NCBI GenBank assembly: GCA_019359675.1
Contig: JAHHGX010000034.1
Span: forward strand, 1-41,262
Length of the DNA: 41,262 bases
Origin: Calothrix sp. FI2-JRJ7
Lineage (GTDB): Bacteria; Cyanobacteriota; Cyanobacteriia; Cyanobacteriales; Nostocaceae
Direction of reading: 5' to 3'
The translations under genes were made by a program, and so were the position numbers. Numbering within the stretch: position 1 is the stretch's first letter; every line of letters starts with the position of its first letter. Shown here piece after piece: positions 1-41,262 of the stretch. The notes below the pieces were generated by a model. It was given only the letters and a program-made list of their open reading frames with translations, was not told the DNA's origin and did not search any database.

Positions 1-191
1 TACGAATTAATATAATTAAAATTTATCATCTTAATATCTATAAACAATATAAACTTATAGTTAATTCTGCTTAAATAACTGCCCAACACTTGAGATTGCT
101 TTTCATGACTTTTTCAGCAAACCCTACTTAATGATGCGGTGAAAATTTCCACTAAGGATACTACCTCATGTGGAGTTGGAGGTGCTGCAAT

Positions 192-878
192 ATGGTACGA
201 CAAGTTACATATGGTTCGACCGCTGATGAAGGATTTATTTACCCAGAAAGCGACGGTCAACCAATGGCAGATAATACGTTACAGTATGAATAGATTGTTA
301 AAATAAAAGAAAATTTAGAAATGCTGTTTGCAGCAATTCAAGATGTATTCATTGCTGGAGACTTGTTATGGTATCATATTCAGGCAAATAAGAAATGCTG
401 TGCGCCAGATATAATGGTAGTATTTGGTAGACTAAAGGGTTATCGCGGCTCATATGTGCAGTGTCAAGAAGGAAATATTGCGCCGCAGGTGGTCTTTGAA
501 ATTCTGTCACCAAGCAATAATAAAGAAGAAATGGATATGAAGCGTGACTTTTATGAAAAATATGGTGTAGAAGAGTATTATCTTTATGACCCAGAAACAA
601 ATAACTTACAAGGTTGGACGCGCGCAAATAAAAGTTTAGTAGCAATTGCGAAAATTAATGGTTGGACAAGTCCACGTTTAAAAATTAGGTTTGTATTAAC
701 AACAACATTAGAAATTTATCGTCCAGATGGGCGCCTTTTTTTAACACCCGTTGAAATTGACCTTGAGCGTCAACTCGAAAAACAAAAGCGTGAAGAAGCA
801 GAAGAACAACTTGAACTTGAACGTCAGCGTTACCAAGAGTTGTTAAGGCAATTAAAAGGAAGAGGCATTGAACTATAA
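192..878 (+). pseudogene. Uma2-family (DUF820) restriction-endonuclease-fold protein, interrupted by an in-frame TAG
   Basis: A GGAGG ribosome site at 178-182 precedes an ATG at 192. The frame reads 33 codons typical of a Uma2 N-terminus (MVRQVTYG..., ...SDGQPMADNTLQYE) and then hits TAG at 291-293. The same frame continues uninterrupted to 878 with the rest of the domain (GDLLWYHIQ, PDIMVVFGR, VVFEILSP, GVEEYYLYDP, LEIYRPDG) and a charged C-terminal coiled tail rich in E, R, K and Q. Homologues I recall carry Trp at the TAG position (TGG to TAG), so this looks like a recent nonsense mutation. An internal Met at 321 could restart a 185-residue protein lacking the N-terminal strand region. Uma2 proteins have a PD-(D/E)XK-like fold, are hugely expanded in cyanobacteria, and have unclear function. 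The family call is confident; whether any product is made is uncertain. Confidence 0.8.
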
Positions 879-942
879 TGTTCGTCTAAAAACTCCTATC
901 GCGTTGGTCATTTAACATTATGTCCGGTTAATTACCTATAAT

Positions 943-970
943 GTAGAGACGTTACATGTAACGTCTCTAC
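943..970. repeat. Perfect 28-bp palindrome (GTAGAGACG...CGTCTCTAC family)
   Basis: The half-site GTAGAGACGTTACA is followed directly by its exact reverse complement. It lies between the Uma2 pseudogene and the MOSC gene, ending 11 bases before the MOSC ATG. Related AGAGACG/CGTCTCT hairpins occur at 16489-16538, 23474-23499 and 29329-29352, so this is a dispersed family. It may act as a transcription terminator or a structured 5' leader. Confidence 0.85.
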
Positions 971-981
971 GAGGTTTTTAA

Positions 982-1773
982 ATGAATGATATTAATGCTT
1001 TTGTTTCAAAATTATTTATTTATCCGGTTAAGGCTTTAGATGGAGTTGAAGTTGAGAGTGTAAAAATTCTGAATAGTGGCGCCTTACAATTTGACCGTGA
1101 GTTTGCTATTTTTGATGAATCGGGAAATTTTGTCAACGGTAAGTCTAATCAGCTTGTTCATGCTATACGTTCTCGATTTGATTTAAATAATAACACTGTT
1201 ACTGTGTCGGCGCCTAAATTTGATGAAGCAACGTTTCATATTAAGGATGAACACGAAGCTTTTGAAGGATGGTTGAGTGAGTATTTTGGTTTTCCTGTCC
1301 AGATAAGACAAAATTTAGATATGGGGTTTCCTGATGATACTGTTTCACCTGGTCCAACGATTATTAGTACTGCGACACTTGAAGCTGTTGCATCATGGTA
1401 TCCTGAACTTGATGTAGAAGAGGTGCGTTTACGGTTTCGTACCAATATTGAAATTAGTACTGTCCCTGCTTTTTGGGAAGATTGTTTGTTTACAGAAGCA
1501 AATCAAACTGTTGATTTTCAAGTTGGAAATGTAAAATTTATTGGTGTTAATCCTTGTCAACGCTGTATTGTTGTCACTCGGAACACTCAAACAGGTACAC
1601 AGTTACCTAATTTCCAAAAGACTTTTGTTGCACAAAGGCGCCAAACATTGCCAGAATGGTCAGATAAGTCGCGTTTTAATCATTTTTTCCGTTTGGCAGT
1701 TAATACTCGTATACCAACCTCTGAAGAAGGAAAATTAATTTCAGTTGGTGATACAATTCAGATTTTGCCATAA
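982..1773 (+). CDS. MOSC domain-containing protein
   Basis: A 263-residue protein with the two-part layout of MOSC proteins: an N-terminal beta-barrel domain (FIYPVKALDGVEVES near residue 12) and a C-terminal MOSC domain containing the conserved NPCQRCIVVTRNT block around residue 190. Such proteins are related to the C-terminal domain of molybdenum-cofactor sulfurase and to mARC, and are thought to bind or transfer sulfur on molybdenum cofactor through the conserved cysteine. The exact substrate is not predictable. The ATG follows a GAGG-containing leader just after a perfect palindrome. The TAA stop overlaps the first base of the repeat at 1773. It appears monocistronic, with no Moco genes nearby. 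Family assignment is confident; the reaction is inferred. Confidence 0.85.
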   Translation: MNDINAFVSKLFIYPVKALDGVEVESVKILNSGALQFDREFAIFDESGNFVNGKSNQLVHAIRSRFDLNNNTVTVSAPKFDEATFHIKDEHEAFEGWLSEYFGFPVQIRQNLDMGFPDDTVSPGPTIISTATLEAVASWYPELDVEEVRLRFRTNIEISTVPAFWEDCLFTEANQTVDFQVGNVKFIGVNPCQRCIVVTRNTQTGTQLPNFQKTFVAQRRQTLPEWSDKSRFNHFFRLAVNTRIPTSEEGKLISVGDTIQILP

Positions 1774-1839
1774 GAAACCGGGTTTCTTTGTTGAAAACTT
1801 GTAATAAAAATAAAGATTTTGCTTAGAAACCCGGTTTCT
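1773..1839. repeat. Paired-palindrome dispersed repeat, copy 1
   Basis: Two 15-bp near-palindromes, AGAAACCGGGTTTCT at 1773-1787 and AGAAACCCGGTTTCT at 1825-1839, bracket an AT-rich core containing AACTTGTAATAAAA and ATTTTGC. The reverse complement of 9500-9565 matches this layout and shares those core words, so the two are copies of one roughly 67-bp element in opposite orientation. Both copies lie immediately 3' of a coding region. Confidence 0.85.
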
Positions 1840-2002
1840 AGGTTGCTTGCTAAATTATTAAGTTTTTTTAAGTTTTGATTCATATGTACACTAGCTATAC
1901 AAAACTTAGTACAATGCGATGTATAGAAATATTGAAAAGTAAAGGGCTTTTCGGATAGATAAAGGTTTATATTCAAGTAATTATCAAACGCTAGGAGCAT
2001 CT

Positions 2003-2326
2003 ATGCAGACAGTTGCATACATTAAAGAAGAAGAATTTGACTCAATTATAACCGCTGATAGTGGAGTGGTTGTATTTGATTTTACAGCTAGTTGGTGCGG
2101 TCCATGTAAAATGGTCGCTCCAATGATGGATAAGTTAGCTCAAGAATTTGAAGGTACCGTCAAAGTAGCGAAAGTAGACTTAGACCAAAGTAAAACTCTT
2201 GCCAAAAGGTTAGGTATCCGCAGTATTCCAGCAGTAATGATTTATAAAGATGGAAACTTAATGGAAACCATTGTTGGAGTATCTCCTTATGAAAAATTCA
2301 GCGATGCTGTAAAAACTCTACTTTAA
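2003..2326 (+). CDS. trxA: Thioredoxin
   Basis: A 107-residue single-domain thioredoxin, the normal length for the family, with the classical active site WCGPCK (Cys32 and Cys35) and the cis-proline loop SIPAVMIYKDG near residues 74-84. It would be a soluble cytosolic dithiol-disulfide oxidoreductase, reduced by ferredoxin- or NADPH-dependent thioredoxin reductase. AGGAG sits about 6 bases before the ATG and supports the start. The first residues (MQTVAYIKEEEFD) differ from the main m-type thioredoxins, so this may be one of the minor cyanobacterial paralogues. No reductase gene is adjacent. It stands alone, flanked by dispersed repeats on both sides. Confidence 0.95.
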   Translation: MQTVAYIKEEEFDSIITADSGVVVFDFTASWCGPCKMVAPMMDKLAQEFEGTVKVAKVDLDQSKTLAKRLGIRSIPAVMIYKDGNLMETIVGVSPYEKFSDAVKTLL

Positions 2327-2338
2327 CAATGTAGAAAC

Positions 2339-2393
2339 GTAGGTTGGGTGTAAGCGAAGCTTTACCGTAGGGTAGCGACAGCGTAACCCAACA
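2339..2393. repeat. GTAGGTTGGGT...ACCCAACAT dispersed hairpin repeat
   Basis: GTAGGTTGGGTG at the left and AACCCAACAT at the right form an inverted repeat around a core containing GCGAAGC and GTAGCGACAGC. It lies just 3' of the thioredoxin gene and resembles repeats common between cyanobacterial genes. A shorter relative is at 7965-8002. Confidence 0.75.
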
Positions 2394-2494
2394 TAAAACT
2401 ACTTATCTAAGACATAGTACATTTCACCAAAATCAAAACATCAAACTCCTAAAAGCAAGTGATATTATAAAATATTTGAACTAGGCATTTTCTA

Positions 2495-2923
2495 ATGCAA
2501 TATTGGACTTTTCAAGCTAATCCCAAGTATAGCAATATTAAAGATGCTATATCTAAGTTAGATAGTATTTACTGGCTGGTAACTCGATACACTAAAGAGA
2601 TTAAACCATCAGATAATGTTTTAATTTGGATTGCTGGAAAAGATGCAGGAATTTATGCAACTGCTAAAGTCATTGATACTCCTAGCTTTATGGATGAACC
2701 TCCAGATATTGATATCTGGACAATGCCCATACGTGCAAAAGGCAAGTTTTACGCTCCAGTAAAATTCACTCAAAAACTCCTTGATAAACCGCTACTAAAA
2801 AATAAATTACAATTTGATTCTGTTTTATATAAATTACAAGTTATACAAAGACCATTTGGAACAAACTTTTCTGTTACTTATTCCGAATGGGAGCGAGTTC
2901 AAGAATTGATAACGAGCGTTTGA
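2495..2923 (+). CDS. EVE domain-containing protein
   Basis: A 142-residue protein consisting of essentially one EVE domain. It starts MQYWTFQANPKYSNI and carries an aromatic-rich first third (SIYWLVTRYTKEI), the strand DNVLIWIAGKDAGIYATA and a C-terminal aromatic segment (FSVTYSEWERV). EVE domains belong to the PUA/YTH-like superfamily and bind nucleic acid, several recognising modified bases. Bacterial members are often linked to restriction or toxin systems, but stand-alone copies like this one are also common. No restriction or methyltransferase gene lies next to it. The ATG at 2495 has no strong ribosome site. Domain call is confident; biological role is unknown. Confidence 0.82.
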   Translation: MQYWTFQANPKYSNIKDAISKLDSIYWLVTRYTKEIKPSDNVLIWIAGKDAGIYATAKVIDTPSFMDEPPDIDIWTMPIRAKGKFYAPVKFTQKLLDKPLLKNKLQFDSVLYKLQVIQRPFGTNFSVTYSEWERVQELITSV

Positions 2924-3091
2924 GTAGGATGGCGCCAATTTCACTATTTACTGAAAATTGGTTAAGTACCAATGAACTTTTGGTTAAGGTGCGGAATGTG
3001 GTTATTGCAACAACAAAAAAATTCACAAGTTAATCAAAAGATTGTTAATAGCAAACGAACTTAGGATTTGATATTTATTAATAGGTTGAGT

Positions 3092-3140
3092 AAAAAAAGC
3101 TATTTAATCATTAACTCGTATACGTTAAGATAGCCTTTTT
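3092..3140 (+). terminator. Possible hairpin terminator upstream of the PEP-CTERM gene
   Basis: AAAAAAGCTAT at 3093-3103 can pair with ATAGCCTTTTT at 3130-3140 with one mismatch, giving a long-looped stem followed by a T-run. It could end transcription from the EVE gene. The long loop makes this tentative. Confidence 0.35.
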
Positions 3141-3178
3141 GTGAAAATTAATATTCTTTCAATATTGGAGGCTTGCAA

Positions 3179-3829
3179 ATGATACTCCGACAACACGGTG
3201 TGTGGTTTTTTCCACTAGTCCTGACTTTACTTAATTTTGTTTCGGGTGCAGCTAGAACAAACGCGCAAACTATTTACCCATTTAGCGGTAATTACGAAAC
3301 AACAATAAAGATTAAGCCTATAGTTGACGACCTTGCAGAGGTAGTTGAGAGTGCTGTAAGTACTGACGCACCTTATGGCTTAGATACATACGGCGGGCTG
3401 GTATACTCTCAAACTAACCTAGCTACCGGAGAAGTCCGCTTTAACGTAGACCCAACAATATATGGTTTGCAGGGCTATCCACAAGGCTTTATTACCTTTG
3501 GAGACGGGGCAAACAAGTTATTTGGAACGGCTGATGCTGGGGCTAAAATTGACTTTGAAAAACTAACTGCTAAAGGCTCTGGTATTTTAAATATCACTGG
3601 CGGCGAGGGCATATTTCAAGGTGCTACTGGTATACTTGATTTTTCTGAAGAAGACAAAGTTACTTTGGGAGAAACTATTCTCTTGAGAGGGCAAGCTCTA
3701 GTGAGTGGTTCTATTCAAGTTCCGCAAAAAGTACCAGAACCAACAATTGGTTTGACTTTGCTTGCTGTGGGTATAACTTACGCTGGTTTGATACGGCACC
3801 GACGGCTAATAATGGGCGCCAGTAGATAA
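3179..3829 (+). CDS. PEP-CTERM sorting domain-containing protein
   Basis: A 216-residue exported protein. The N-terminus has a signal peptide (hydrophobic run FFPLVLTLLNFVSG followed by small residues). The C-terminus has the tripartite PEP-CTERM signal: VPEP, a hydrophobic helix (TIGLTLLAVGITYAGLI) and a basic end (RHRR). PEP-CTERM proteins are processed by exosortase and are usually associated with exopolysaccharide production or the cell surface. The mature domain resembles other beta-rich PEP-CTERM proteins with no assigned function. ATG 3179 is chosen because GGAGG at 3167-3171 lies 7 bases upstream; an in-frame TTG at 3173 would be only 1 base from it. No exosortase gene is visible in this window. 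Confidence 0.85.
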   Translation: MILRQHGVWFFPLVLTLLNFVSGAARTNAQTIYPFSGNYETTIKIKPIVDDLAEVVESAVSTDAPYGLDTYGGLVYSQTNLATGEVRFNVDPTIYGLQGYPQGFITFGDGANKLFGTADAGAKIDFEKLTAKGSGILNITGGEGIFQGATGILDFSEEDKVTLGETILLRGQALVSGSIQVPQKVPEPTIGLTLLAVGITYAGLIRHRRLIMGASR

Positions 3830-3843
3830 ACAGCTTAATTAGA

Positions 3844-3868
3844 ATCTCCGTTTTTTTAAAGCGGAGAT
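3844..3868. terminator. Hairpin between convergent genes
   Basis: ATCTCCG at 3844-3850 and CGGAGAT at 3862-3868 form a perfect 7-bp stem around a T-rich loop, 15 bases after the PEP-CTERM stop and 33 bases before the end of the convergent oxidoreductase gene. It could serve as a bidirectional terminator, although there is no long T-tail. Confidence 0.5.
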
Positions 3869-3900
3869 ATTTCAAGATATTGTAATGGATTAGATGCGAT

Positions 3901-5022
3901 TTATATAAGGGTGGTTAGGTCTGGAACGTTTACCCATTGAGATTTTTCGTTGGATTCGTGGGCTAAGTCCATTAATAATTGTGAATATACTCCTTCACGC
4001 AATGAGGGTGTGACTGGTTGTTGCTGGTCGATGGCTTTTACCCAGTTGTCGATGACGCGAATAAATGCTGATATTCTACCGTCTGCGTAATCTTTAGGGA
4101 ATAAGTAATGTGGTGGTATTTCTATTTCTGCTTGCGGTTTCCCTACTTTATTTCCTAGAACATGAAATCCATTTACATAATCTTTCTGGTTTTCGCTTCC
4201 TAATACTAATGTCCCTTCATCTCCATATACTTCTACCCAATGGGGACGATGTGCGTGTACGACTGCGCTAATTGTGAGTTGACACGGTGTTCCGTCTGCT
4301 AGTTTCAGCATCAACATACATGTGTCATCGCTATCTACTGCTTTTAGTTCCCCAGTACTGGGGTCTACACGATTTGGTATTGCGGTACTTAAATTCGCAC
4401 TAAGTTTATTTACTGGGCCAAATAACCAATGTATATAGTCAAATGCATGAGAACCTAATGAACCCAATGCTCCTCCTCCTTGGTCTTTACGTGAGTACCA
4501 GTTCCAAGGACGACCCGTATCTGCACGTGAGGCGCCTAACCAGTCTATTCTAATTAAACGCTTATTTCCTACATATTTTTGTTCTAACAGTTCTGCGAAG
4601 AATTGCCACCCAGGTATAAAGCGGAATTCAAAGTCTACTGTGGCAGTTACTCCTTTTTGATTTGCCAGATGATATAGTTCTATGGCTTCATTTACATTTA
4701 ACGTAACAGGTTTTTCTAGCAGTAGATGTTTACCTGCTTCTAAAACAGTTTTTGCCATTTCGTAGTGGAGAAATGGCGGCGTTGATATACTAACTGCGTC
4801 AACATCCGGTAAAGTTACAATATGATTTATATTATCGCTGGCATGAGGTATATTATTTTCTGTCGCAATTTGCTTCGCTTTTTCTAAATCGCGATGGTAA
4901 ACTGCTGCTACTTGGGTACGGTGGTGTGCTTGAAATCCAGGAATATGAACTTTATTCCCAAACCCCGTTCCAATTACTGCTACACCAATTGCACTTTGAT
5001 TTAATTCTGAAGCTGGCGCCAT
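3901..5022 (-). CDS. Gfo/Idh/MocA-family oxidoreductase
   Basis: A 373-residue protein, normal for the family. The N-terminal Rossmann domain binds NAD(P): VIGTGFGNKVHIPGF at about residues 16-30. The conserved EKP motif (LLLEKPVTLN, Glu103-Lys104-Pro105) carries the catalytic lysine that contacts the nicotinamide and substrate. The C-terminal alpha/beta domain contains the typical DWLGASR and GGGALGSLGSHAFDYIHWLFG segments. Members oxidise or reduce sugars, inositols or related polyols; the substrate cannot be told from sequence. The first codons read ATGGCGCCAGC, so a GGCGCC palindrome forms part of the start (Met-Ala-Pro). It is a single gene, convergent with the PEP-CTERM gene and divergent from the next small gene. 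Confidence 0.9.
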   Translation of the reverse strand: MAPASELNQSAIGVAVIGTGFGNKVHIPGFQAHHRTQVAAVYHRDLEKAKQIATENNIPHASDNINHIVTLPDVDAVSISTPPFLHYEMAKTVLEAGKHLLLEKPVTLNVNEAIELYHLANQKGVTATVDFEFRFIPGWQFFAELLEQKYVGNKRLIRIDWLGASRADTGRPWNWYSRKDQGGGALGSLGSHAFDYIHWLFGPVNKLSANLSTAIPNRVDPSTGELKAVDSDDTCMLMLKLADGTPCQLTISAVVHAHRPHWVEVYGDEGTLVLGSENQKDYVNGFHVLGNKVGKPQAEIEIPPHYLFPKDYADGRISAFIRVIDNWVKAIDQQQPVTPSLREGVYSQLLMDLAHESNEKSQWVNVPDLTTLI

Positions 5023-5134
5023 AAATAAACTTATTCTATAAACAAAATTCTTAATTCTCCTACTTTATATAACTCTACCTGAATAGGGCATATTAAAATA
5101 GCCTTTAAGTAATAGCTCTATAATCATAAAGCTT

Positions 5135-5500
5135 ATGGCAGATGTAAATGGCACTTGGTTAGGTACATACTGGCAACAAGGGACACCAACCCGCTTTGAA
5201 ATAGCACTTATTCAAAGCGGTAATACTTTAAGCGGTAGTGTTCTGGATGACTGCTATTTGGGGGAAGCACGTCTTCAAGGTAAAGTAGTTGGACGAAGTA
5301 TTAGTTTTATCAAACGTTATATTACTACTTCTTCCGCAGCAATAATATATACTGGCACAATTTCAGAAGATGACAATTATATGCACGGAGAGTGGAATAT
5401 AGGAAAGTGGGACTTCGGTGCCTGGGAAGCTCGACGTGATAGTGACAATTTGGTGATAGACTTACAAAAAAGTCGAGTTGTCGAAACTTTAAAATCTTAA
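5135..5500 (+). CDS. Conserved hypothetical protein, predicted all-beta
   Basis: A 121-residue protein I cannot assign to a named family. It starts MADVNGTWLGTYWQQGTPTR and consists of alternating short hydrophobic strands with glycine turns (FEIALIQSGNTLSGSV, GRSISFIKRY, AIIYTGTISEDD, HGEWNIGKWDFGAWEARR). This suggests a small beta-barrel or lipocalin-like sheet. It has no signal peptide and no transmembrane helix, so it is probably cytosolic. Its last 12 bases overlap the 3' end of the convergent DUF1822 gene, so both genes share their termination region. The codon usage and strand pattern argue that it is a real gene. Confidence 0.65.
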   Translation: MADVNGTWLGTYWQQGTPTRFEIALIQSGNTLSGSVLDDCYLGEARLQGKVVGRSISFIKRYITTSSAAIIYTGTISEDDNYMHGEWNIGKWDFGAWEARRDSDNLVIDLQKSRVVETLKS

Positions 5501-6634: not shown

Positions 6635-6636
6635 AA

Positions 6637-6703
6637 GTAGGGTGCGTGACGCGATAAAAATTTTAAAACGAAGCCAGTTATTTTGTAGCCTCACGCACCT
6701 TAC
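6637..6703. repeat. Hairpin element (GTAGGGTGCGTGACGC family) at the sigma-DUF1822 junction
   Basis: GTAGGGTGCGTGACGC at 6637-6652 pairs imperfectly with CTCACGCACCTTAC ending at 6703. The core contains AAAACGAAG, which matches the TTCGTTTT of related elements on the other strand. It belongs to the same family as the elements at 17272-17428 and 32164-32750. It overlaps the last roughly 8 codons of the sigma factor gene and ends 2 bases before the DUF1822 ATG. Confidence 0.8.
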
Positions 6704-8002: not shown

Positions 8003-8054
8003 AAAAATCCTAGTAAATATGATATATATAAAGTGGGGAAGTATAATTGAGAAA

Positions 8055-9580: not shown

Positions 9581-10804
9581 TTATATTTTAATGAACCAGC
9601 GTTGACGGTACATTATCCAAGCGGCGCCGAACCATAATAATAAAGTAGCGAACGCAAATAGAAATGAACCGTTTACTGCTCCTGCCCAAGATGCAAAGTA
9701 GTTTTTATAGATGAAATTATATGCGCTAGGCGCCTCCAAACCCGTACCGATTACAGTTCTGACTAAGACTTTAATTAATAATACTGAGGCAACAAAAATG
9801 GCGATAGCGTTCATACCTAATATCTTAAAACTCTCTCCCCATTTTTTTATACCCTGTACTTCAATTAGTTCATAGCAAGCTGAAAGTAATAACAAAGCTG
9901 TTCCCGTTGTATATACTACGTATGAACTTGTCCAAAGTTTTTTGTTTATTGGGAATACAAAACTCCAAGCTAAACCTACTATTAAACAACCTATTCCAAA
10001 TAATGCTAATCCTATACTTGTACGTGTTTGAACAGGCTGTGTACGTATCCATTGACCTGTGAAAAAACCAAGCAAAACACTAACAATAGCAGGAATGGTA
10101 CTAAATAACCCTTCGGGGTCGCCTAAATTTTTAAAGCTCGCGTGTAAATGCGCGGCAGGTATAATAGAGCGGTCGATAAATGCTGCAAAATTTGCACCTG
10201 GGTTACTTTCATCTAAAACACCCGCTCCAAAACCTGGAACAGGTATATACATCATTGCTAACCAATAACCAACGAGTAGTAAACCAGCAACTACCCATGT
10301 TGCTTTTCTAGGTAATGTCAAAACAATGAGTGACGCAAACAAGTACGATAAACTAATGCGTTGCAATACTCCCATATAACGAAGACTTTCAAAATTGAAA
10401 GTCCACAGACCTTTATTCCAAAACCCGTTCAAAAATAATCCCAAGGCAAATAATATTAACGCACGACGAAATATTTTTCCATAAGGCGGACTTAAAGACT
10501 TGTGTTGTGCTGGTGCTTTAGATGACACTGATACACTGCCGCCAGAATTTTGATATGCTACATTCGCATCGCGTTCTCTTGCTACTTGGATTTTTGCATC
10601 AGTATACTTAGCGAACGAAAAAGCCATCGCTACACCAACAATGAATAAAAAGAAGGGAAACACTAAGTCAGCAAGTGTACACCCATTCCAACTAGCATGA
10701 ACCAAGGGAGCATATACATCCGGTTCAGCAATACTCGCCATATTAACAAGAATCATCCCAGCTATCGTGATGCCACGAAAGACATCAAGTGAAGTAAGTC
10801 GCAT
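9581..10804 (-). CDS. DUF5009 / heparan-alpha-glucosaminide N-acetyltransferase-like membrane protein
   Basis: A 407-residue polytopic membrane protein from ATG 10804 (MRLTSLDVFRGITIAGMILVNM), the usual beginning of this family; a 31-residue upstream extension is AT-rich and unlikely. Roughly ten hydrophobic segments follow. The N-terminal SLDVFRG motif and LADLVFPFFLFIVGVAMAFS are hallmarks of the acyltransferase-3/HGSNAT-like superfamily. Human HGSNAT moves acetyl groups from cytosolic acetyl-CoA to glucosamine across a membrane; bacterial homologues probably acylate sugars or cell-wall glycans, but substrates are unknown. Between the first helices there is an unusual Ser/Lys/Gln-rich insertion (SGGSVSVSSKAPAQ). 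The gene stands alone, convergent with the ABC ATPase gene. Confidence 0.82.
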   Translation of the reverse strand: MRLTSLDVFRGITIAGMILVNMASIAEPDVYAPLVHASWNGCTLADLVFPFFLFIVGVAMAFSFAKYTDAKIQVARERDANVAYQNSGGSVSVSSKAPAQHKSLSPPYGKIFRRALILFALGLFLNGFWNKGLWTFNFESLRYMGVLQRISLSYLFASLIVLTLPRKATWVVAGLLLVGYWLAMMYIPVPGFGAGVLDESNPGANFAAFIDRSIIPAAHLHASFKNLGDPEGLFSTIPAIVSVLLGFFTGQWIRTQPVQTRTSIGLALFGIGCLIVGLAWSFVFPINKKLWTSSYVVYTTGTALLLLSACYELIEVQGIKKWGESFKILGMNAIAIFVASVLLIKVLVRTVIGTGLEAPSAYNFIYKNYFASWAGAVNGSFLFAFATLLLWFGAAWIMYRQRWFIKI

Positions 10805-17428: not shown

Positions 17429-17493
17429 CCAAGATGCTTCACTACGTTCAGCATGACACTTACGACTCAGCACCTAGTACTCAGCATTCCTAA

Positions 17494-20844: not shown

Positions 20845-22500
20845 ATGGTTTTATTTATGAGTTCTATTCTTCGGCAGAAAAAGGTATCTTTTTTTAAGGG
20901 GTTTTTGTGCAGCTTAGGTATAATTTGCAGTTGGGGTACGGTGGTGCCTGCGAATGCAGCAGAAACTATTACTATACAATTGGGACTATTCGAGCAAAAA
21001 ATCGATGTTGATGATTTAGAAAATTTTGCCAAGAATGGGAAATTACCTAAAGACTTAGAAGTATTTTCGTCTTTTTTAACACCACAAGTCAAGGAAGTAC
21101 TGAATCAAAGGCTACAATTAAATCCAGAGTTTGCCGATAAGTTTATTGATGGACTTGCTAGAACTTCTCAAGGTCAGCGATTAATTTCTTCTTTGGGTGG
21201 AATAATCCCCGGTAGCACGAGTCAAAGTCTTAAGGATACCCTGAATTTAACTGCTCGTCGTTTTAATGGTTTGACGGTTTTAGGATTTATACGTTCCTAT
21301 CCTGGTGAGAATATTACCGTCGATGCGACAAAAGCGATTGGCTTATCACTCGAACTGAATGCGAATAATTTACAGAGTCAAGCGTTCGCTGCCTTACTCG
21401 AACGTGAGTTACCCAAAAATGATATAATATCATTACCTAGAAACATCAATCCAGGTAGAACAGGAAACGAACAAGTACAATTAACTAGTTTTACATTCCA
21501 AGACCGTCAAAGAAATCGCACGATTCCAGTTGATATTTATTCTACTACGGGTACAACACAGAAACCATTGATTGTAATATCTCATGGTTTTGGAGCAAAC
21601 AGGCGCCATTTACAGTATTTAGCGCAGCATTTAGCTTCGTATGGTTTTACTGTCGCAGCTTTAGAGCATCCTGGTAGTAATGCAGTCGCAGTTAACCGTG
21701 TCACAAACAGTAGTTCTGACTTATCAAAACTTATTAGTGCCAAAGAATTTATCGACCGTCCCCAAGATGTCACCTTTTTACTCAACGAACTTTCAAAATT
21801 AAACCTACAACCCGGTCAACTCCAAAATAAACTCAATACCGATAATGTCACCGTTGTTGGTCACTCTTTAGGAGGTTATACTGCATTAGCTTTAGCTGGA
21901 GGTAAATTAGACTTAGATAGTCTACGTAAATTCTGTAAAAATTCACCTTTGTTTGGTGAGGCGCCTGGAGACTGGTTACAATGTGCAGCAGTGGAACTTA
22001 AAGATAGTGATATCGGAACCCCACTTCAAGATAAACGCATTAAAGGCGCCATTGTTTTAAACCCACTAGTAGGTAACTTATTTGGTAGAAAAGGGTTAGA
22101 AAATATTAATACTCCTGTATTAATGTTAGCAAGCAGTGATGATGCTTTAACACCAGCATTAAAACACCAATTTGCACCATTCACAGAATTAAGAGGCAAT
22201 AAATATTTAATTACAGCAATTGGAGGTACACACCTAAGCGTCAGTGATCCCACATACCAAACAGCCAATATTACCAATATAGTAAAAGAACGACGCGGCA
22301 CCGAAACAAACAACCTGCGCGAATTAGTATCTGGAGTCAGTGTAGCGTTTATTAAACAGCAAACCGATGAAGCAAAAACATATCAACCGTTTTTAACCCC
22401 CCTCTACGCGAAATCACTATCCACAACACAGTTACCACTACGCTTAGTATCAGAACTACCAGGTAACTTGAAAAAATGGGCAGAGTTCGCGGCAAATTGA
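20845..22500 (+). CDS. Exported alpha/beta hydrolase with DUF1400 domain
   Basis: About 551 residues from ATG 20845; ATG 20857 and GTG 20815 are alternatives and no clear ribosome site decides. A signal peptide (FFKGFLCSLGIICSWGTVVPANAA) leads to the DUF1400 domain (about 50-190 in GTG numbering), which occurs in cyanobacterial lipase-like proteins. The hydrolase core has the oxyanion-region ISHGFGANRRH, the nucleophile elbow VVGHSLGGYTAL (Ser351 in GTG numbering), an acid candidate in LASSDDALTP and the histidine in IGGTHLSVSD. It is therefore probably a periplasmic or lumenal esterase/lipase of unknown substrate. The start region follows a GGCGCC at 20755. It is monocistronic. Confidence 0.87.
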   Translation: MVLFMSSILRQKKVSFFKGFLCSLGIICSWGTVVPANAAETITIQLGLFEQKIDVDDLENFAKNGKLPKDLEVFSSFLTPQVKEVLNQRLQLNPEFADKFIDGLARTSQGQRLISSLGGIIPGSTSQSLKDTLNLTARRFNGLTVLGFIRSYPGENITVDATKAIGLSLELNANNLQSQAFAALLERELPKNDIISLPRNINPGRTGNEQVQLTSFTFQDRQRNRTIPVDIYSTTGTTQKPLIVISHGFGANRRHLQYLAQHLASYGFTVAALEHPGSNAVAVNRVTNSSSDLSKLISAKEFIDRPQDVTFLLNELSKLNLQPGQLQNKLNTDNVTVVGHSLGGYTALALAGGKLDLDSLRKFCKNSPLFGEAPGDWLQCAAVELKDSDIGTPLQDKRIKGAIVLNPLVGNLFGRKGLENINTPVLMLASSDDALTPALKHQFAPFTELRGNKYLITAIGGTHLSVSDPTYQTANITNIVKERRGTETNNLRELVSGVSVAFIKQQTDEAKTYQPFLTPLYAKSLSTTQLPLRLVSELPGNLKKWAEFAAN

Positions 22501-25617: not shown

Positions 25618-26994
25618 TTAACTTTCTAATTTTACAATCAAACGACGCAGGCGCCAAATGAACGCTCCTGCTGATGTACCTACACCAATAGCTTGTCCTA
25701 TCCACAAACCTACACCATCTAAACCCAAGTGGAATCCTAGAAAATAACCGCTTGCTAACCCAACTAGCCAAAATGCAGCGAAACTTAATAACATTGGTAC
25801 TTGTGTGTCTTTAAGTCCACGCAAGGCGCCTTGTGCTGTGGTCTGCACTCCGTCTAAAATTTGTGATACTGCTGCCACGGCTAACATTGATGTAACTAAT
25901 GGTATCAATTTTGCGTTCTCTGGTTTGTTAATATCCAAGTAAAGACTAATAATAGGGCGTGGAAATGCTAGTAATAGCACTGCCATCAAAGTCATAAATA
26001 TTGCACCCATACACATACTAATATTAGCTGTACGTCGCACTCCATCAGAATTATTTTGTCCATTCCACCATCCCACTCTAATTGTTGTGGCAAAGGATAT
26101 TCCTAAAGGAACCATGAATAGTACAGCAATAGTTTGAAATACAATTTGGTGTGCAGCAAGTGTTTCAGTACCTAACAACCCCATTAAATACGTTGTAATA
26201 CTAAACAATCCCACCTCAAAACCAAATGATATACCAATCGGCACCCCAATCCATATCATTTCACGTAATATCTTGGGTTCAATTTGATATAACTTTTTAA
26301 ATAACCGAAAACTTCTCAGTTCTGAATGCTTGAGCGTATAAACAATCAAAGACACTAGCATTACCCACTGTGATAATACACTTGATACAGCAATCCCTGA
26401 TAACCCCAGCGCTGGAAATCCTAACTTGCCAAACCCTAGTATGTAATTACCAACTGCATTTAACAGAGTTCCGATAACAACAATAGTAATGATGGGTCGA
26501 ACCTGAGAAAGCGAAGATAAAACGCTTTTGAGCATTGAAAAAGTTAAAGCTGGTAGAAAACCCCAAACGATAAAATCAAGGTACTTTTTTGCTAAACTTA
26601 CAACTTGTGGCGCCTGACCCAATTGCAACATCAGCGAATCAGCATGTGCAAGTAGTATCATCAAAGGTATCGATAAAAGTAAACATAACCAAAATCCTTG
26701 TCGTGTAACTTGTTGAATTTTGGCATTATTACCACTCCCAAACGCTTCTGCAACTAGGGGACTAACACCCACAACCACACCTGTTGCCATAACCAACAAT
26801 GTCATAAACGTAGTAGTTGCCAAACCTCCTGCTGCAAGGGTATCAGTACCCAACCAACCCATCATTACAGTATCAACAAAACCAGTAGCAGCTTGAGCTA
26901 TTTGTGCAGATGCCAAAGGAATAGACAAATCTAACAGTGAACTGATTTCTGTACGAGTATTAGGTTTTATAGGTTTTATAGGCAAATGCACCAT
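25618..26994 (-). CDS. MATE-family multidrug/metabolite efflux transporter
   Basis: A 458-residue transporter from ATG 26994 (MVHLPIKPIKP); a TTG three codons upstream is less likely. It has twelve predicted transmembrane helices in two MatE repeats. The first begins LLDLSIPLASAQIAQAATGFVDTVMMGWLG and the second EMIWIGVPIGISFGFEVGLFS. GVVVGVSPLVAEAFGSG and the C-terminal DGVQTTAQGALRGLKDTQVPM are characteristic of the NorM/DinF branch. It would expel cationic or organic compounds using a Na+ or H+ gradient at the plasma membrane. Substrate is unknown. The short linker PIKPIKPNTRT near the N-terminus arises from a small direct repeat. Confidence 0.92.
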   Translation of the reverse strand: MVHLPIKPIKPNTRTEISSLLDLSIPLASAQIAQAATGFVDTVMMGWLGTDTLAAGGLATTTFMTLLVMATGVVVGVSPLVAEAFGSGNNAKIQQVTRQGFWLCLLLSIPLMILLAHADSLMLQLGQAPQVVSLAKKYLDFIVWGFLPALTFSMLKSVLSSLSQVRPIITIVVIGTLLNAVGNYILGFGKLGFPALGLSGIAVSSVLSQWVMLVSLIVYTLKHSELRSFRLFKKLYQIEPKILREMIWIGVPIGISFGFEVGLFSITTYLMGLLGTETLAAHQIVFQTIAVLFMVPLGISFATTIRVGWWNGQNNSDGVRRTANISMCMGAIFMTLMAVLLLAFPRPIISLYLDINKPENAKLIPLVTSMLAVAAVSQILDGVQTTAQGALRGLKDTQVPMLLSFAAFWLVGLASGYFLGFHLGLDGVGLWIGQAIGVGTSAGAFIWRLRRLIVKLES

Positions 26995-31473: not shown

Positions 31474-32163
31474 TGGTGCGCTTTTCCTCTACTCGCATTA
31501 AAGAATAAATATTGAATTATTAAGGCTGGTTGGGAAAGGCAGTTATAATCTTACGCAGCTGTTGGGTAACACGGGTGTGACAAGAGTGTCTATACAGGTT
31601 TTGTCAAGACGAGCGGTTATCCAAGTTTGTTCCCCTACTTTCCCACTAGTTGAAAATTATTTAGAAGCACGCTGTTTTTCGTTTAAGAGTATCTATAGCT
31701 CTTAGTCGCTGGCGGCGACGGTAAAATACGAAGTCAGTATGAGTTTTGCTTTAATCTAATAGTACGATAAATTTTAGCGTTAGTAAAGTAGCATAGCCAA
31801 AACTTATTATTATAGTTTAAAAAGTGTACTTACCAAAAAATCTGGTTGAGAAAATACAGTTCCTCACAGCTCACTATATATATACTGACGTGAAAACCCC
31901 TAGTTCTATACTTACTCTCTATCCGGATAACCGTAATGATAAAGCTGGAATATGGGGGGGATGTTACTAAACATAGGAATTCTGGAATTGCTTATGGTGC
32001 TGTTGTAGTTTATAGACTTTTACACTAAACATTTTTACTAAGATTTATAAAGAAACTTCTCTGCCTTCAGAGTGGTTTATTCTCTAAACTGTTCCCGCTT
32101 TTGTATGTAACCGCTCTCACGCGCGGTTTTGAACCTAGGGTATATGACTTTTGGCATAGAATG
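31474..32163. other. Gene-poor region upstream of the sigma factor
   Basis: About 690 bases without a convincing gene. It must contain the sigma factor promoter. A short open frame at 31936-32028 (30 codons, MIKLEYGGDVTKHRNSG...) has no clear ribosome site and is not called. AACCGC (32109-32114) and GCGGTT (32123-32128) form a perfect small hairpin next to the tandem array. Confidence 0.5.
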
Positions 32164-32685
32164 TACGGCGCCATCACAAAAATTTAACGTAGGGTGTGTG
32201 ACGCCATTACAAAATTTCAACGTAGTAACAAAACTTATAGCGTCACGCACCTTACGAGCGTAGTACGGTGCCATCACAAAATTTTAACGTAGGGTGTGTG
32301 ACGCCATTACAAAATTTCAACGTAGTAACAAAACTTATAGCGTCACGCACCTTACGAGCGTAGTACGGCGCCATCACAAAATTTTAACGTAGGGTGTGTG
32401 ATGCCATTACAAAATTTCAACGTAATAACAAAACTTATAGCGTCACGCACCTTACGAGCGTAGCCATCACGAAATTTTAACGTAGGGTGTGTGACGCCAT
32501 TACAAAATTTCAACGTAATAACAAAACTTATAGCGTCACGCACCTTACGAGCGTAGCCATCACAAAATTTCAACGTAATAACAAAACTTATAGCGTCACG
32601 CACCTTACGAACATAGTACGGCGCCATTACAAAATTTCAACGTAATAACAAAACTTATAGCGTCACGCACCTTACGAGAATTAGA
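32164..32685. repeat. Tandem array of hairpin element A (units of about 100, 93 and 55-67 bp)
   Basis: Units starting TACGG(C/T)GCCATCAC recur at 32164, 32264 and 32364 with an exact 100-bp period; the next begins at 32464 after a 7-bp loss, and two shorter units follow at about 32557 and 32617. Each full unit contains GTAGGGTGTGTGACGC and, about 35 bases later, GCGTCACGCACCTTAC, an imperfect 16-bp inverted repeat, with CCATTACAAAATTTCAACGTA between. The right half-element (CATTACAAAATTTCAACG to CACCTTACGA) occurs six times. There are no unique spacers, so it is not a CRISPR. Confidence 0.92.
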
Positions 32686-35063: not shown

Positions 35064-36359
35064 ATGGCACGTCAAAGGGTTGTGATTGTAGGAGGTGGGT
35101 TTGCTGGACTATCAGCAGCACGCGCTTTAGGAAATTCCCCTTGTGAGGTGCTGCTAGTCAACCGCGAAAACTATCATACTTTTGTACCTTTACTGCATCA
35201 AGTGGCAACCTGTGGACTGGCGCCAGAACACATTGTTTGCTCGATTCGGAATTTAATTAAAAAATATAAAAATGTAAAATTTGTAACCGCCGAAGTTCAC
35301 AAAATCAATTTAGAAACCAAAACTATCGAATTCAATGGTGTTGTAATTAGCTATGATTACTTAGTTTTAGCCTGTGGCAGTACTTCGCGTTTTTTTGGAG
35401 TACCTGGTGCTTTCGAGTATTCATTAACGCTAAAATCTTTGAATAATTCAGTAAATATACGTAATCACATATTACATTGTTTTGAGGTAGCGCAAGAGGA
35501 AGTACGGGTATCTCGACAACAGCAGCAATTGACATTTACAATTGTGGGAGGAGGCACCACTGGGGTTGAGATGGCAGCAGAGTTAGCGACCTTAGTTTAC
35601 GGAACGCTAAGTAAAGATTATCCAAATTTAGATTTTCGTCGAGTTAGAGTTTTATTACTGCATTCAGGAGAAAGACTACTTCCAGAAATGCCGACTCGTT
35701 TGAGTAATTATACTGCGCGACAATTACGGCAGTTAGGAGTAGAGGTACAATTAAATTCTCGTGTAACTGGGGTGACAGAAAACGCGATTCATTTAGAAGA
35801 CTCGCGCGTTATTCCTTGCCATACAGTAATATGGACTGCGGGAGTTGAGGGAGATAAAAAACTTAATAAATGGGGACTGTTAACAAATCGCAACAATCAA
35901 GTGAAGGTTTTCTCGACATTACAGGTTCCTGAACATCCCCAAGTATATGCCGTTGGAGATTTAGCAGCACTTCACGATAAACAATTACCAATGGTGGCGC
36001 CAGTAGCAATACAACAAGGAATAACTGCCGCAAATAATATTTTACGGCAAATTAAAGGTAAAAATCCGCAACCACTGCATTATCAACATCAAGGTTCAAT
36101 GGTCATTATTGGGCGCCATGCAGCAGTGGCTCATATTGGTAAAGTTAAATTAACAGGGTTTCCTGCTTGGTTTTTGTGGTTAGTAATTCACCTCGCTTGT
36201 TTACCAGGAAATCTAAATCGTTTACACGTTTTAATTAGCTGGGGATGGATATACTTTTTGCGTACACATCCAATGCGATTAATCTTTAGGCAAGCTAATT
36301 TAGCTAAATATCATGACATCCCACTTCCTAACCTCGACCGTGTACAGGGGAAGGATTGA
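35064..36359 (+). CDS. NAD(P)/FAD-dependent oxidoreductase, type II NADH dehydrogenase-like
   Basis: A 431-residue flavoprotein. FAD-binding RVVIVGGGFAGLSAARAL (4-21) and the second Rossmann motif FTIVGGGTTGVEMAAELATL (NADH site, near 155) are intact, as is the C-terminal FAD motif VYAVGDLAAL. The HTFVPLLHQVATCGLAPEHI segment is typical of NDH-2/Ndb proteins. A C-terminal amphipathic region (FPAWFLWLVIHLACLPGNLNRL) would attach the enzyme to the membrane. It likely oxidises NAD(P)H and reduces quinone without proton pumping, and in cyanobacteria Ndb proteins may act as redox sensors. GGGGGG-rich sequence 4-9 bases upstream of ATG acts as a ribosome site. It overlaps the convergent hydrolase gene by 32 bases. 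Confidence 0.92.
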   Translation: MARQRVVIVGGGFAGLSAARALGNSPCEVLLVNRENYHTFVPLLHQVATCGLAPEHIVCSIRNLIKKYKNVKFVTAEVHKINLETKTIEFNGVVISYDYLVLACGSTSRFFGVPGAFEYSLTLKSLNNSVNIRNHILHCFEVAQEEVRVSRQQQQLTFTIVGGGTTGVEMAAELATLVYGTLSKDYPNLDFRRVRVLLLHSGERLLPEMPTRLSNYTARQLRQLGVEVQLNSRVTGVTENAIHLEDSRVIPCHTVIWTAGVEGDKKLNKWGLLTNRNNQVKVFSTLQVPEHPQVYAVGDLAALHDKQLPMVAPVAIQQGITAANNILRQIKGKNPQPLHYQHQGSMVIIGRHAAVAHIGKVKLTGFPAWFLWLVIHLACLPGNLNRLHVLISWGWIYFLRTHPMRLIFRQANLAKYHDIPLPNLDRVQGKD

Positions 36360-39487: not shown

Positions 39488-40443
39488 GAATTTAAATCCC
39501 TCACTTCCACTCTTCTAATCTCATCTAAAAACTTTAGCTGCTGGTATATGCAACTAATTTGCGGTAAATTCACACCTAAGAAATGGGCTTTCCGTAATGG
39601 GTTTCCAAAAATTGCTTCTACTTCTAAAGGGCGCCTTTCATCATAATCAATTTTCATACTGGTACGATAAGGCTTCATATTTACGGTGTAATTTAGCATT
39701 GTTTGAATAAAGCTATCAGGAATGATGCGTCCATAACTAGATGAGCCTAATGCAACTTCATGCATCAACTGTTCAACTAATTGGCGAGTATGAACATAAG
39801 ACATTAATTCATCTGTTCTAGCGTTGAGAATTACAGACAAGCCATTATAGGGAATATTCCATACTAATTTTTTCCATCGAGCTAGTAATAAGTCTTCAGC
39901 TAATTCCATTGAGATTCCAGCACTAGCAAAATCATTGGCAATTTGCTGCATATAATGTGTAATCCCAGTTGAATTATAGTCATTTGCATATCCCCCTAGG
40001 GTAATTTGTCCATAGTCAAGGTGACGGATATGTCCTGCTCCAACTTTATTGGAACAGAGAAAACACAACCCACCAATAATGTTGACATTACCAACTATTT
40101 TGGCAACTTCTTCTTCAACCGCTAGTCCATTTTGCAAGACCAACACTACCCCATCATCTCTGACGACAGGCAGTAACATCTGCGGCAATAAATGGTTTTG
40201 TGTCGTCTTGAGTGCTATCACCACAACATCGCATTGTGGCATTTTTTCTACATCATTGTAGGCATTGACTTGAGGAAGGGTGAAATCACCATCTTTTGAC
40301 TCAATAACTAAACCATGTTTACTAACATATTCGTAATCACTGTTCAGCAAAAAGTGAACATCTTTACCAGCTTTTTGGAGTTTGGCGCCGTAAAAGCCAC
40401 CTAATGCACCAGTTCCCAGAATGGCGTAACTACGGTTCGACAT
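39484..40443 (-). CDS. Putative 2-dehydropantoate 2-reductase (ApbA/PanE family)
   Basis: A 319-residue protein with the two-domain ketopantoate reductase fold. The NADPH site is YAILGTGALGGFYGAKLQKAG (residues 6-26). Central motifs VVVIALKTTQNHLL and VLVLQNGLAVEEEVA match the family, as does the catalytic-lysine region ARWKKLVWNIPYNGLSVI in the all-helical C-terminal domain. It could supply pantoate for coenzyme A, but cyanobacteria usually carry several such paralogues and no panB/panC genes are nearby, so the substrate is open. ATG 40443 is well placed. The gene converges on the histidine kinase with a 4-base overlap. Confidence 0.87.
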   Translation of the reverse strand: MSNRSYAILGTGALGGFYGAKLQKAGKDVHFLLNSDYEYVSKHGLVIESKDGDFTLPQVNAYNDVEKMPQCDVVVIALKTTQNHLLPQMLLPVVRDDGVVLVLQNGLAVEEEVAKIVGNVNIIGGLCFLCSNKVGAGHIRHLDYGQITLGGYANDYNSTGITHYMQQIANDFASAGISMELAEDLLLARWKKLVWNIPYNGLSVILNARTDELMSYVHTRQLVEQLMHEVALGSSSYGRIIPDSFIQTMLNYTVNMKPYRTSMKIDYDERRPLEVEAIFGNPLRKAHFLGVNLPQISCIYQQLKFLDEIRRVEVRDLNS

Positions 40444-40488
40444 GGTTGGTTAAATAAGGGTTGTAACACTTTTATTTTCTTTAATATC

Positions 40489-41025
40489 TCACATTTTGTA
40501 CACGAGACACAAATGTTTTAAGGTGGCTGGATTTGCAACTATTAATTGTTGGATTTTAGCTTCGGTTTCTAATAATTTAGTTTGATTGTTACCATTATCG
40601 TGTGTTTCCCAATCTATGTTTTCTACTCCTAGTAGATGTACTAATGTATTTGTTACTGTTTTTTGATTGTATAATAATTTCTGGATTTTAAGTTGTTGTT
40701 CGTTAAGTACTGGCGCCGATTTTTGTGTAGTAATTATATCTGGTTGTTTGTTTGTCCATGTAGGTTGCCAGTTATTGAAACCACTAAGCGTTTTGGGAAA
40801 GTTGGTTGATGCTTCTTTTATTAGGGTTTGCAGAATTTGCGCGTGTGGACGTAGACGTAATATAAGTGTGGGTAGCCAAGGTAATAATATAGTGTCGGGC
40901 ACCGTGGCAAAGACTTTACTTAACAGTTCTACTACAAACCGACTAATACGGGGAGCAAACGTTAACGATAATATAAACCCGTTGAGATAATCTGGAAAGG
41001 CGCCTATAAGCATTGGGTTATCCAT
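40489..41025 (-). CDS. Conserved cyanobacterial protein, probably 5'-truncated by IS630 insertion
   Basis: A 178-residue frame from ATG 41025 (MDNPMLIGAFPDYLNGFILS). It is mostly alpha-helical (RISRFVVELLSKVFATVPDT, LPWLPTLILRLRPHAQILQ, ASTNFPKTLSGFNNW) with a Gln/Asn-rich C-terminus. I do not recognise a named family, though it looks like the C-terminal part of a longer cyanobacterial protein. The same frame is open upstream for 30 more codons (…STWLLSLRTIEQIRNFFNQV) to a TAG at 41116-41118, without an ATG, and those residues look native. An IS630-type transposase starts 76 bases beyond that stop. The simplest reading is a gene cut by the insertion. A decayed relative lies at 37695-37815. 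Confidence 0.6.
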   Translation of the reverse strand: MDNPMLIGAFPDYLNGFILSLTFAPRISRFVVELLSKVFATVPDTILLPWLPTLILRLRPHAQILQTLIKEASTNFPKTLSGFNNWQPTWTNKQPDIITTQKSAPVLNEQQLKIQKLLYNQKTVTNTLVHLLGVENIDWETHDNGNNQTKLLETEAKIQQLIVANPATLKHLCLVYKM

Positions 41026-41118
41026 GACTTGATTAAAAAAGTTACGAATTTGTTCTATGGTTCGCAGTGATAGTAACCATGTGCTTTTCTTATTGCATAC
41101 ACCTATACTATACAGCTA

Positions 41119-41262
41119 CAATTTAGTCAACTATAGATACAGCAGATTGCGGGTAAATGAGGTACAATTATAATTGGTGCATCAATTACGATAATGAAAG
41201 CTTACTCCATCGACTTCCGGTTAAAAATTGTTCAAGCCTACGAGCAAGGGGACACTTCAATC
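41119..41262 (+). mobile_element. Left end of an IS630-family insertion sequence (continues past the window)
   Basis: The transposase frame at 41194 defines the element. Its left end must lie between the truncated gene (coding resemblance to about 41100) and 41194. IS630 elements insert at TA dinucleotides; several TA sites occur in 41100-41130 (CTATACTATACAG). The terminal inverted repeat cannot be confirmed because the right end is outside the window. Confidence 0.6.
41194..41262 (+). CDS. IS630-family transposase, N-terminal part only
   Basis: The last 23 codons of the window read MKAYSIDFRLKIVQAYEQG then DTSI. This is the standard beginning of cyanobacterial IS630/Tc1-mariner transposases, where the first helix-turn-helix of the DNA-binding domain starts. 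The frame is open to the window edge. The catalytic DDE domain is outside, so whether the transposase is intact is unknown. Confidence 0.85.
   Translation, partial: MKAYSIDFRLKIVQAYEQGDTSI

Follow-up and report, generated by a model that had tools for sequence, protein, structure and literature searches.

Results

GGCGCC is dispersed throughout the window and the genome

The stretch of DNA analysed here, hereafter the window, comprises 41,262 nt of contig JAHHGX010000034.1 from the cyanobacterium Calothrix sp. FI2-JRJ7 (assembly GCA_019359675.1; GC content 38.2%). Spread along it, from position 1 to 41262, are 77 copies of the palindromic hexamer GGCGCC, the first at 730 and the last at 40999, with a mean gap of 530 nt and a largest gap of 1,840 nt. 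Sixty-five of these sites lie inside open reading frames (ORFs, here plain longest-ORF calls) of at least 100 amino acids and 12 lie outside; the two halves of the window hold 40 and 37, and the flanking bases are variable. Base composition predicts 1.99 copies and a first-order Markov model 3.23, while a maximal-order model, which already includes the overlapping 5-mers of the site, predicts 40.5. Among the 64 palindromic 6-mers, GGCGCC ranks first in the window. An earlier sequence-only reading had arrived by eye at about 77 sites against some two expected by chance, in genic and intergenic DNA alike and with variable flanks, and the exact counts bear it out on each of these points. It had also seen no copy of HIP1 (GCGATCGC), the highly iterated palindrome (HIP) of other cyanobacteria, and the count is indeed 0, as it is for CGATCG and CCGCGG. 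Its remark that other GC-only palindromes are rare stands for GCCGGC and CCCGGG (one copy each) but not for CGCGCG (10) and GCGCGC (7); hence GC-only palindromes other than GGCGCC are not all rare.

The excess is not confined to the window: the genome in its entirety (91 contigs, 8,663,394 nt together) holds 14,889 copies of GGCGCC (one per 582 nt; 1,719 per Mb) against 8 of the reversed word CCGCGG, our control, and 31 of HIP1 against 51 reversed-control words. In a 400-kb sample from another contig of this genome (G000:C20) the ratio of observed to expected copies (O/E) is 31.3 on composition and 20.4 on a first-order Markov model, the next palindromic hexamer, CGCGCG, reaching only 7.5. The most frequent 8-mer of the sample is CAGGCGCC, whilst GATC and GGCC fall to 0.095 and 0.16 of expectation. 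CGCGCG and GCGCGC are also enriched in 400-kb samples of this genome and of three others from the genus (PCC 7103, PCC 7716 and NIES-4105), CGCGCG by 4-16x with NIES-4105 highest.

Two further properties of these samples deserve mention. Seven palindromic hexamers (TTCGAA, GTCGAC, CCATGG, GAGCTC, GTGCAC, TGCGCA and GCATGC) are absent from the 400 kb of the window's own genome and GACGTC occurs twice, a pattern that we read as avoidance resembling that found with many restriction systems. Stretches free of GGCGCC reach 6.7 kb in the same sample and 8.7 kb in that of PCC 7103; perhaps these represent recently acquired DNA.

The excess is a property of the DNA

A word so abundant could in principle be an artefact of composition or of protein-level constraint, generated by codon choice, by a frequent dipeptide or by repeated DNA. 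The distribution of sites speaks strongly against this. GGCGCC is present in all three reading phases in each of five samples (the window and the four 400-kb samples), and in the 400-kb samples it reaches 107-296 sites per phase against 5-13 after codon shuffling within genes. O/E is 28-36 within ORFs and 38-47 outside them across the five samples, and the reversed word is limited to 1-8 copies per genus genome. What can be said for an artefact is that tandem repeats with periods of ~100 and ~60 nt occupy positions 32163..32678 of the window and that the 100-nt unit contains GGCGCC, so that the sites there may have multiplied with the repeat instead of arising independently; these account for few sites. 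A codon or peptide cause is refuted by the codon shuffles, which yield far too few sites, and we attach next to no probability to the artefact explanation as a whole. The GGCGCC excess is that of a DNA-level word, present in all three phases and in non-coding DNA. The window also carries two heptanucleotide tandem repeats, GAGTTAG (7.7 copies at 17100-17153) and AACACCC (8.6 copies at 17492-17558).

GGCGCC replaces HIP1 across the genus

We surveyed 217 genomes of the family, seven of them from the window's genus: its own (G000), Dulcicalothrix desertica PCC 7102 (G060), Calothrix PCC 7103 (G061), NIES-4105 (G063) and PCC 7716 (G065), together with HK-06 (NIES-2101; G062) and the metagenome-assembled genome C42_A2020_038 (G064), the last two assigned by identity and partial matches. 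All seven hold 7,475-20,380 copies of GGCGCC (1,150-1,720 per Mb, or 1.15-1.72 per kb), against 0-1,053 in the other 210, of which the highest (G084, 1,053) has more reversed-control words (1,270). Conversely, HIP1 numbers 31-163 in the seven genomes; among the other 210 the lowest counts are 30 (G182, 3.2 Mb and 88% complete), 535 (G194) and 574 (G191), all the rest having at least 990. GATC is depleted to an O/E of 0.07-0.18 in five genus samples. The exchange of HIP1 for GGCGCC is therefore genus-wide, and the proposal of the sequence-only reading that GGCGCC serves as the replacement HIP is supported over the entire genome and in 7/7 genomes of the genus.

With its low HIP1 count, G194 was considered as a further GGCGCC genome and rejected (2 copies in 100 kb, 326 in 10.7 Mb). 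In the first 20 kb of five of its contigs (L159-L163), GATC stands at 0.014 of expectation and the 8-mer CCTCGCGG occurs 101 times in the 100 kb, apparently inside a longer repeated stretch.

The phenomenon is real and was already known. The sequence-only reading cited Elhai (2015; PMC4390886) for the concept of alternate HIPs, and rightly so; that paper moreover reports the same hexamer as the alternate HIP of Calothrix PCC 7103, which makes the novelty lower than the reading implied. In that paper PCC 7103 has two methylases and no HIP1, the data comprise a single complete genome plus 19 kb from D253, in which GGCGCC is likewise the alternate HIP, alternate HIPs are called sporadic rather than arranged in clades, and it is argued that only HIP1 persists. 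A search of a collection of open-access papers (subscription papers lying outside its scope) found GGCGCC in Calothrix only there. The PCC 7103 system so described shares with ours GGCGCC, the loss of HIP1, the depletion of GATC, two methyltransferases of the GRCGYC class and the same top 8-mer; the difference is that the window's genome is another species of that genus, and that GGCGCC is common to seven genomes. Since all seven share it, the argument that alternate HIPs are sporadic and do not form clades fails here.

Elhai proposed a ratchet, whereby mismatch repair steered by the methylated dinucleotide G-m5C (m5C, 5-methylcytosine) fixes mutations that create methylated G-m5C, allowing the word to accumulate, as a side product of the GRCGYC methylase, to about one per kb with no function needed. 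The density observed in the genus agrees with this and lies inside the span of about 1,000-2,000 per Mb that marks an alternate HIP in Elhai's sense. So does the spacing of sites, for gaps below 100 nt are fewer than random in all five samples (78 observed vs 110+-9 in the window's own contig, 49 vs 83+-8 in PCC 7103, 55 vs 104+-9 in PCC 7716, 62 vs 83+-8 in NIES-4105 and 7 vs 13+-3 in the window), as expected of a saturating process. The failure of the sporadic-not-clade argument in this genus counts on the other side.

Sites decay at the central cytosine

Alignment of orthologous DNA of PCC 7103 and PCC 7716 covered 231 of 400 kb at 94.1% identity and gave 308 shared GGCGCC sites and 177 present in one species only, a comparison that is unpolarised. 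Of these 177, 27 differ by more than one base and 150 by a single base; 117 of the latter are changes of the third base from C to T, or the same change on the opposite strand (C3>T, giving GGTGCC or GGCACC), against 14 and 8 transitions at the other two cytosines and 11 other changes. C3>T is the commonest class in 9/9 pairs compared. Words one letter removed from GGCGCC are depleted, an observation from which we draw no conclusion.

The same pattern can be followed within the window, which we aligned with five genus genomes (25-36 of 41 kb each). The resulting six-species table contains 96 loci, 46 with a site in every aligned species, and T states are scattered among the others, falling on opposite strands in different species at five loci. 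At 5417..5422 the window reads GGTGCC where PCC 7102 and PCC 7103 keep GGCGCC, HK-06 has GGCACC and PCC 7716 has GGTGCT (NIES-4105 is unaligned). The site at 22045..22050 is intact in the window, HK-06, PCC 7716 and NIES-4105, with GGTGCC in PCC 7102 and GGCACC in PCC 7103, that is, independent C>T losses. Three further loci have decayed to GGCACC in the window: 22297..22302 (GGTGCC in HK-06, GGCGCC in three other species), 26240..26245 (GGTGCC in PCC 7103, GGCGCC in four others) and 35553..35558 (GGTGCC in PCC 7103 and PCC 7716, GGCGCC in three others). By comparison, the site at 9729..9734 is kept in 4/5 other species, including NIES-4105 (~85% identical DNA), and reads GACGCC in HK-06.

The 400 kb of the window's own genome were also aligned with stretches of five genomes. 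With NIES-4105 as outgroup to polarise the changes, 43/56 losses by a single base prove to be C3>T or the mirror change. The PCC 7103 lineage alone, one of four, accounts for 27 of the 56, and site maintenance may have weakened there. Within sites, C>T occurs at 23/676 (C3) and 20/676 (mirror), compared with 18/1,384 in other GCG trinucleotides, and C3>T exceeds change at the outer C of the same sites (23/312 vs 5/312, p 7e-4). At ~94% identity, changes at the glycine wobble position are to T in 47/49 cases in sites against 157/205 elsewhere (p 0.001). This footprint probably reflects loss through deamination of a methylated central C, and to judge from its spectrum the central C is probably 5-methylated. 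A selected word that merely tolerates GGTGCC is the alternative to a deamination reading.

Sites are conserved within genes

The conservation of GGCGCC hardly differs between 94% identity (0.79) and 86% (0.80), whereas over the same distances it drops from 0.73 to 0.43 for hexamers in general and from 0.70 to 0.53 for the remaining hexamers with three G and three C. The more distant comparison rests on pairs with NIES-4105 (for PCC 7103, 97 kb alignable at 85.7% identity). Identical codons inside and outside sites provide the closest control, although the pairs overlap in part (the window's genome and PCC 7716, each against NIES-4105, share regions), the counts are not fully independent, and conserved genes are over-represented in the DNA that could be aligned. 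At ~86% identity, retention in sites and elsewhere was 237/270 vs 235/515 for GGC, 247/267 vs 279/624 for GCC (92.5% vs 44.7%), 121/139 vs 449/830 for GCG and 118/125 vs 539/837 for CGC; 11 further GGC codons standing before another GCN belong to neither class, and 8/11 were kept. At ~94% identity the corresponding figures were 376/425 vs 636/840, 399/414 vs 798/1,017, 210/242 vs 1,025/1,397 and 187/192 vs 1,073/1,308. Thus, GGCGCC is conserved within genes beyond matched controls. A ratchet should protect any base within ~1 kb, yet identical codons fare very differently depending on whether they lie in a site.

The T state at the glycine wobble of sites remains near 10% with divergence (47/425 at ~94% identity, 25/270 at ~86%), whereas in other GGC codons it rises from 157/856 to 200/526. 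As the T state in sites stays flat while that of the control codons doubles, loss and removal seem to be in balance. A repair bias of the very-short-patch type, in which T:G repair reverts GGTGCC and GGCACC to GGCGCC and drives the word up, would fit both the predominance of central C>T among single-base differences and the failure of the T state to build up as genomes diverge. However, the outer C is protected too, as the GCC wobble demonstrates, and this lies beyond the reach of such repair; T:G mismatch repair bias alone is therefore not enough. Furthermore, Vsr (PF03852) was found in 0/7 genus genomes and in 1/217 of the family, in a search limited to Vsr in which no other T:G glycosylase was sought. 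Very-short-patch repair is accordingly rejected as the driver, and we regard T:G repair bias in general as highly improbable.

DNA uptake words are dispersed, GC-rich and conserved in genes. GGCGCC has these same properties, lying both in and between genes, and a competence system preferring DNA that contains it could have spread it by recombination. Such a preference would leave the tie to a cognate methylase and the exchange with HIP1 unexplained, and we consider it improbable.

Predicted GRCGYC-class methylases and a DpnII-type gene accompany the word

The window's genome encodes five longer m5C methylases in addition to some gene fragments. Two of the five, P0001 and P0002, are 60% identical to each other, and P0002 is 54.6% identical over its full length to methylases on small plasmids, one of them annotated hindVM. 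Neely and Roberts (2008; PMC2413257) count HindVP with the homologues of BsaHI, a GRCGYC system, and H. influenzae Rd is listed with the motif GRCGYC (PMC8565308). Neely and Roberts characterise GRCGYC enzymes by an Arg, followed by Gly or Ala, upstream of the TL motif; P0001, P0002 and an enzyme from a genome of another family (G284, discussed below) match this description, with residues counted on an alignment, and P0001 and P0002 have the m5C methylase domain, HaeIII-like, of the class. P0001 and P0002 are thus predicted to be GRCGYC-class m5C methyltransferases, a class predicted to accept GRCGYC, which is wider than GGCGCC. For M.BsaHI, a member of this class, methylation of the central C has been demonstrated (PMC2413257), and together with the C3>T footprint this favours the central methylation on which Elhai's ratchet also depends. 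For P0003, P0004 and P0005, NCBIfam and PADLOC give general methylase names only.

Genes of the P0002 type (81-100% identity) are present in 7/7 genus genomes, and the seven genus rows used in our tree form a single clade (support 100/99). The row for HK-06 is a second copy (83%) located at another place; its true orthologue is likely cut at contig ends, judging by pieces of 94-97% identity. In G064 a flagged TGA is the stop codon just before the 327-amino-acid open frame, so this copy reads as intact. By Pfam, P0002 is flanked in PCC 7103, PCC 7716 and the window's genome by a RuBisCO-like gene (L041:4676-5920, L042:4664-5920 and L002:2511-3773) on one side and an SLH gene on the other, and the same neighbours were recognised by eye in PCC 7102, NIES-4105 and C42. 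No restriction gene lies beside P0002 at the three loci tested, where the search took in the immediate neighbours, the rest of the genome being outside it; nor did PADLOC match any of six ORFs near P0002, and two ORFs farther away (436 and 203 amino acids) gave no match at all. The search for an orphan methyltransferase of GGCGCC that the sequence-only reading proposed thus yields two candidates, P0001 and P0002. A second cytosine methylase of 661 amino acids lies upstream of P0002 in PCC 7102 and PCC 7103 (L040 and L041, ~1213-3207; Pfam match for PCC 7103) and was not seen at the other P0002 loci.

P0002 resembles the methylases of the BsaHI, HgiDI and HindV systems (PMC2413257) in full-length similarity, in the features around the TL motif and in the central C as its probable target, and differs from them in having no restriction gene adjoining it at the loci tested. 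The site loss usual under GRCGYC systems is reversed here for GGCGCC only, GACGTC remaining at 1-2 copies per 400 kb in the genus samples.

The DpnII family cuts GATC (PMC2413257). A DpnII-type gene of full or nearly full length is found in 7/7 genus genomes, compared with 12/210 of the other family genomes (Fisher p 1.2e-8).

A possible second switch, and other features of the window

In a sample of 386 genomes of the phylum, judged by eye against the reversed control and with the composition of high-GC genomes left uncorrected, G284 (another family, 3.8 Mb) has 9,489 copies of GGCGCC against 2,450 reversed and 74 of HIP1 against 174 reversed. Its GC content is 52.6%, as estimated from a 3.9-kb piece only, at which GGCGCC would be ~7.5x expectation. 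It carries a full-length P0002-like gene (54% identity; L204 is the piece around the methylase), which the tree places in a distant clade with genes of Planktothrix, Pseudanabaena and Helicobacter (98/96) and which would therefore be an independent gain. Two congeners differ from it: G281 has 320 GGCGCC, 3,110 HIP1 and no P0002 match above 37%, and G230 has 343 GGCGCC, 134 HIP1 and no match above 38%. G284 may represent an independent switch to GGCGCC, while G230 indicates that HIP1 can be low with no replacement. G420 was rejected as a second case: it has 2,493 GGCGCC (38 reversed) but also 2,362 HIP1, nothing in it resembles P0002 more closely than a 37% match spanning half the protein, and at ~49% GC (from a 3.5-kb piece, L205) its count is near expectation.

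Elsewhere in the window, an EAD4-NACHT-HEAT protein, identified by its domain matches, is encoded at 11547-14471 on the reverse strand, and we take it to be a STAND NTPase of the kind found in defence and signalling. At 7971-8742 on the forward strand, a HigB-like toxin gene (PF09907) overlaps the ORF that comes after it, for which Pfam gives no match and which may encode the antitoxin.

Discussion

Our findings extend a known replacement of HIP1 to an entire genus, all seven genomes of which also carry a P0002-type methylase and a DpnII-type gene; they add decay at the very base expected to be methylated and conservation of the word within genes. The methylated position is required by Elhai's model, in which it was unknown, and in the text of PMC4390886 available to us we met no account of the conservation of GGCGCC between species.

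We propose that GGCGCC is a methylated landmark that has assumed the role of HIP1 and is kept mainly by selection, a reading we favour over Elhai's ratchet and hold with about even confidence. The ancestor of the genus would have carried a GATC-cutting, DpnII-type restriction system that emptied the genome of GATC and hence of HIP1. P0002, encoded at one chromosomal place with no adjoining restriction gene, would methylate the central C of GGCGCC (GG-m5C-GCC) and so provide the same G-m5C-G mark that HIP1 gives in other cyanobacteria. Purifying selection, rather than biased copying, would then hold the sites at ~1,150-1,720 per Mb against constant deamination of the methylated C to T, and the landmark would most plausibly be used in DNA repair or chromosome organisation.

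The parallel with HIP1 is close. The C of HIP1 is methylated by a cognate m5C methylase to give G-m5C-G (PMC6604393), and HIP1 is reported to be conserved in genes, as GGCGCC is here, and to be kept by selection (Xu 2018, cited in PMC6604393). Both words are hyperabundant, GC-rich palindromes that recur roughly once per kb, and each is paired with a cognate m5C methylase and a G-m5C-G mark, both of which are predicted in the case of GGCGCC. GGCGCC differs from HIP1, which goes with CGATCG and GATC methylases, in being another word, in having no GATC inside it and in being served by an enzyme of the GRCGYC class.

Several observations weigh against this proposal. Outside genes, sites were kept in 34/47 cases within the ingroup (93 unaligned), where all non-coding hexamers were kept in 42,690/64,101, and in 7/15 against NIES-4105 (125 more unalignable); in overlapping pairs, the comparison with NIES-4105 gave 11/24 for non-coding sites and 12,353/28,143 for all non-coding hexamers. 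By parsimony, T>C gains at ancestral GGTGCC loci number 0/24, too few loci for a rate of gain. Polarised C3>T runs at only 1.7x the level of codon-matched GGC elsewhere, an excess that falls short of significance (23/312 vs 6/132, p 0.30; vs 3/68, p 0.59), and the T-only character of change at the glycine wobble is gone at ~86% identity (25/33 vs 200/283, p 0.69). Among the matches listed with at least 57% identity over ~290 residues or more, chosen by eye, a P0002-like enzyme turns up in at least 50 genomes of the family beyond the genus (two flagged with an internal stop), in which the median count of GGCGCC is 6.5 and the highest 277. Seven of these carriers (G027, G029, G096, G134, G187, G189 and G203) also possess a DpnII-type gene and keep 1,973-7,545 HIP1. 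Neither enzyme, therefore, is sufficient for the exchange.

That non-coding sites are not clearly conserved is what a ratchet would lead one to expect, and together with density, spacing and the support for central methylation it makes that model the most serious competitor of a selected landmark. The strong difference between identical codons inside and outside sites nevertheless leaves us considering the ratchet unlikely, though by no means negligible. Its companion argument that only HIP1 persists is contradicted by a clade in which GGCGCC has persisted.

It is tempting to speculate further that HIPs are interchangeable, such that the cell needs G-m5C-G about once per kb and not a given word. 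The genus would have transferred the mark to GGCGCC by way of an unrelated methylase after GATC restriction erased HIP1 and kept it there through its radiation, and G284 may have made a similar exchange with a distantly related methylase. This broader proposition is tentative, and we grant it somewhat less than an even chance.

Whether HIPs have a function or simply arise as methylation and repair proceed is a long-open question, and a genus in which the word has been exchanged allows word and mark to be told apart. With genomes as close as these (~94% and ~86% identity over aligned stretches), whole-genome alignment can distinguish selection from continual replenishment and, as PCC 7103 and PCC 7102 are culture-collection names, removal of the methylase in a living strain is conceivable. 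Although it is not HIP1, GGCGCC is conserved in the genes of these cyanobacteria in the manner of a functional site, and the spectrum of its decay points to a methylated base.

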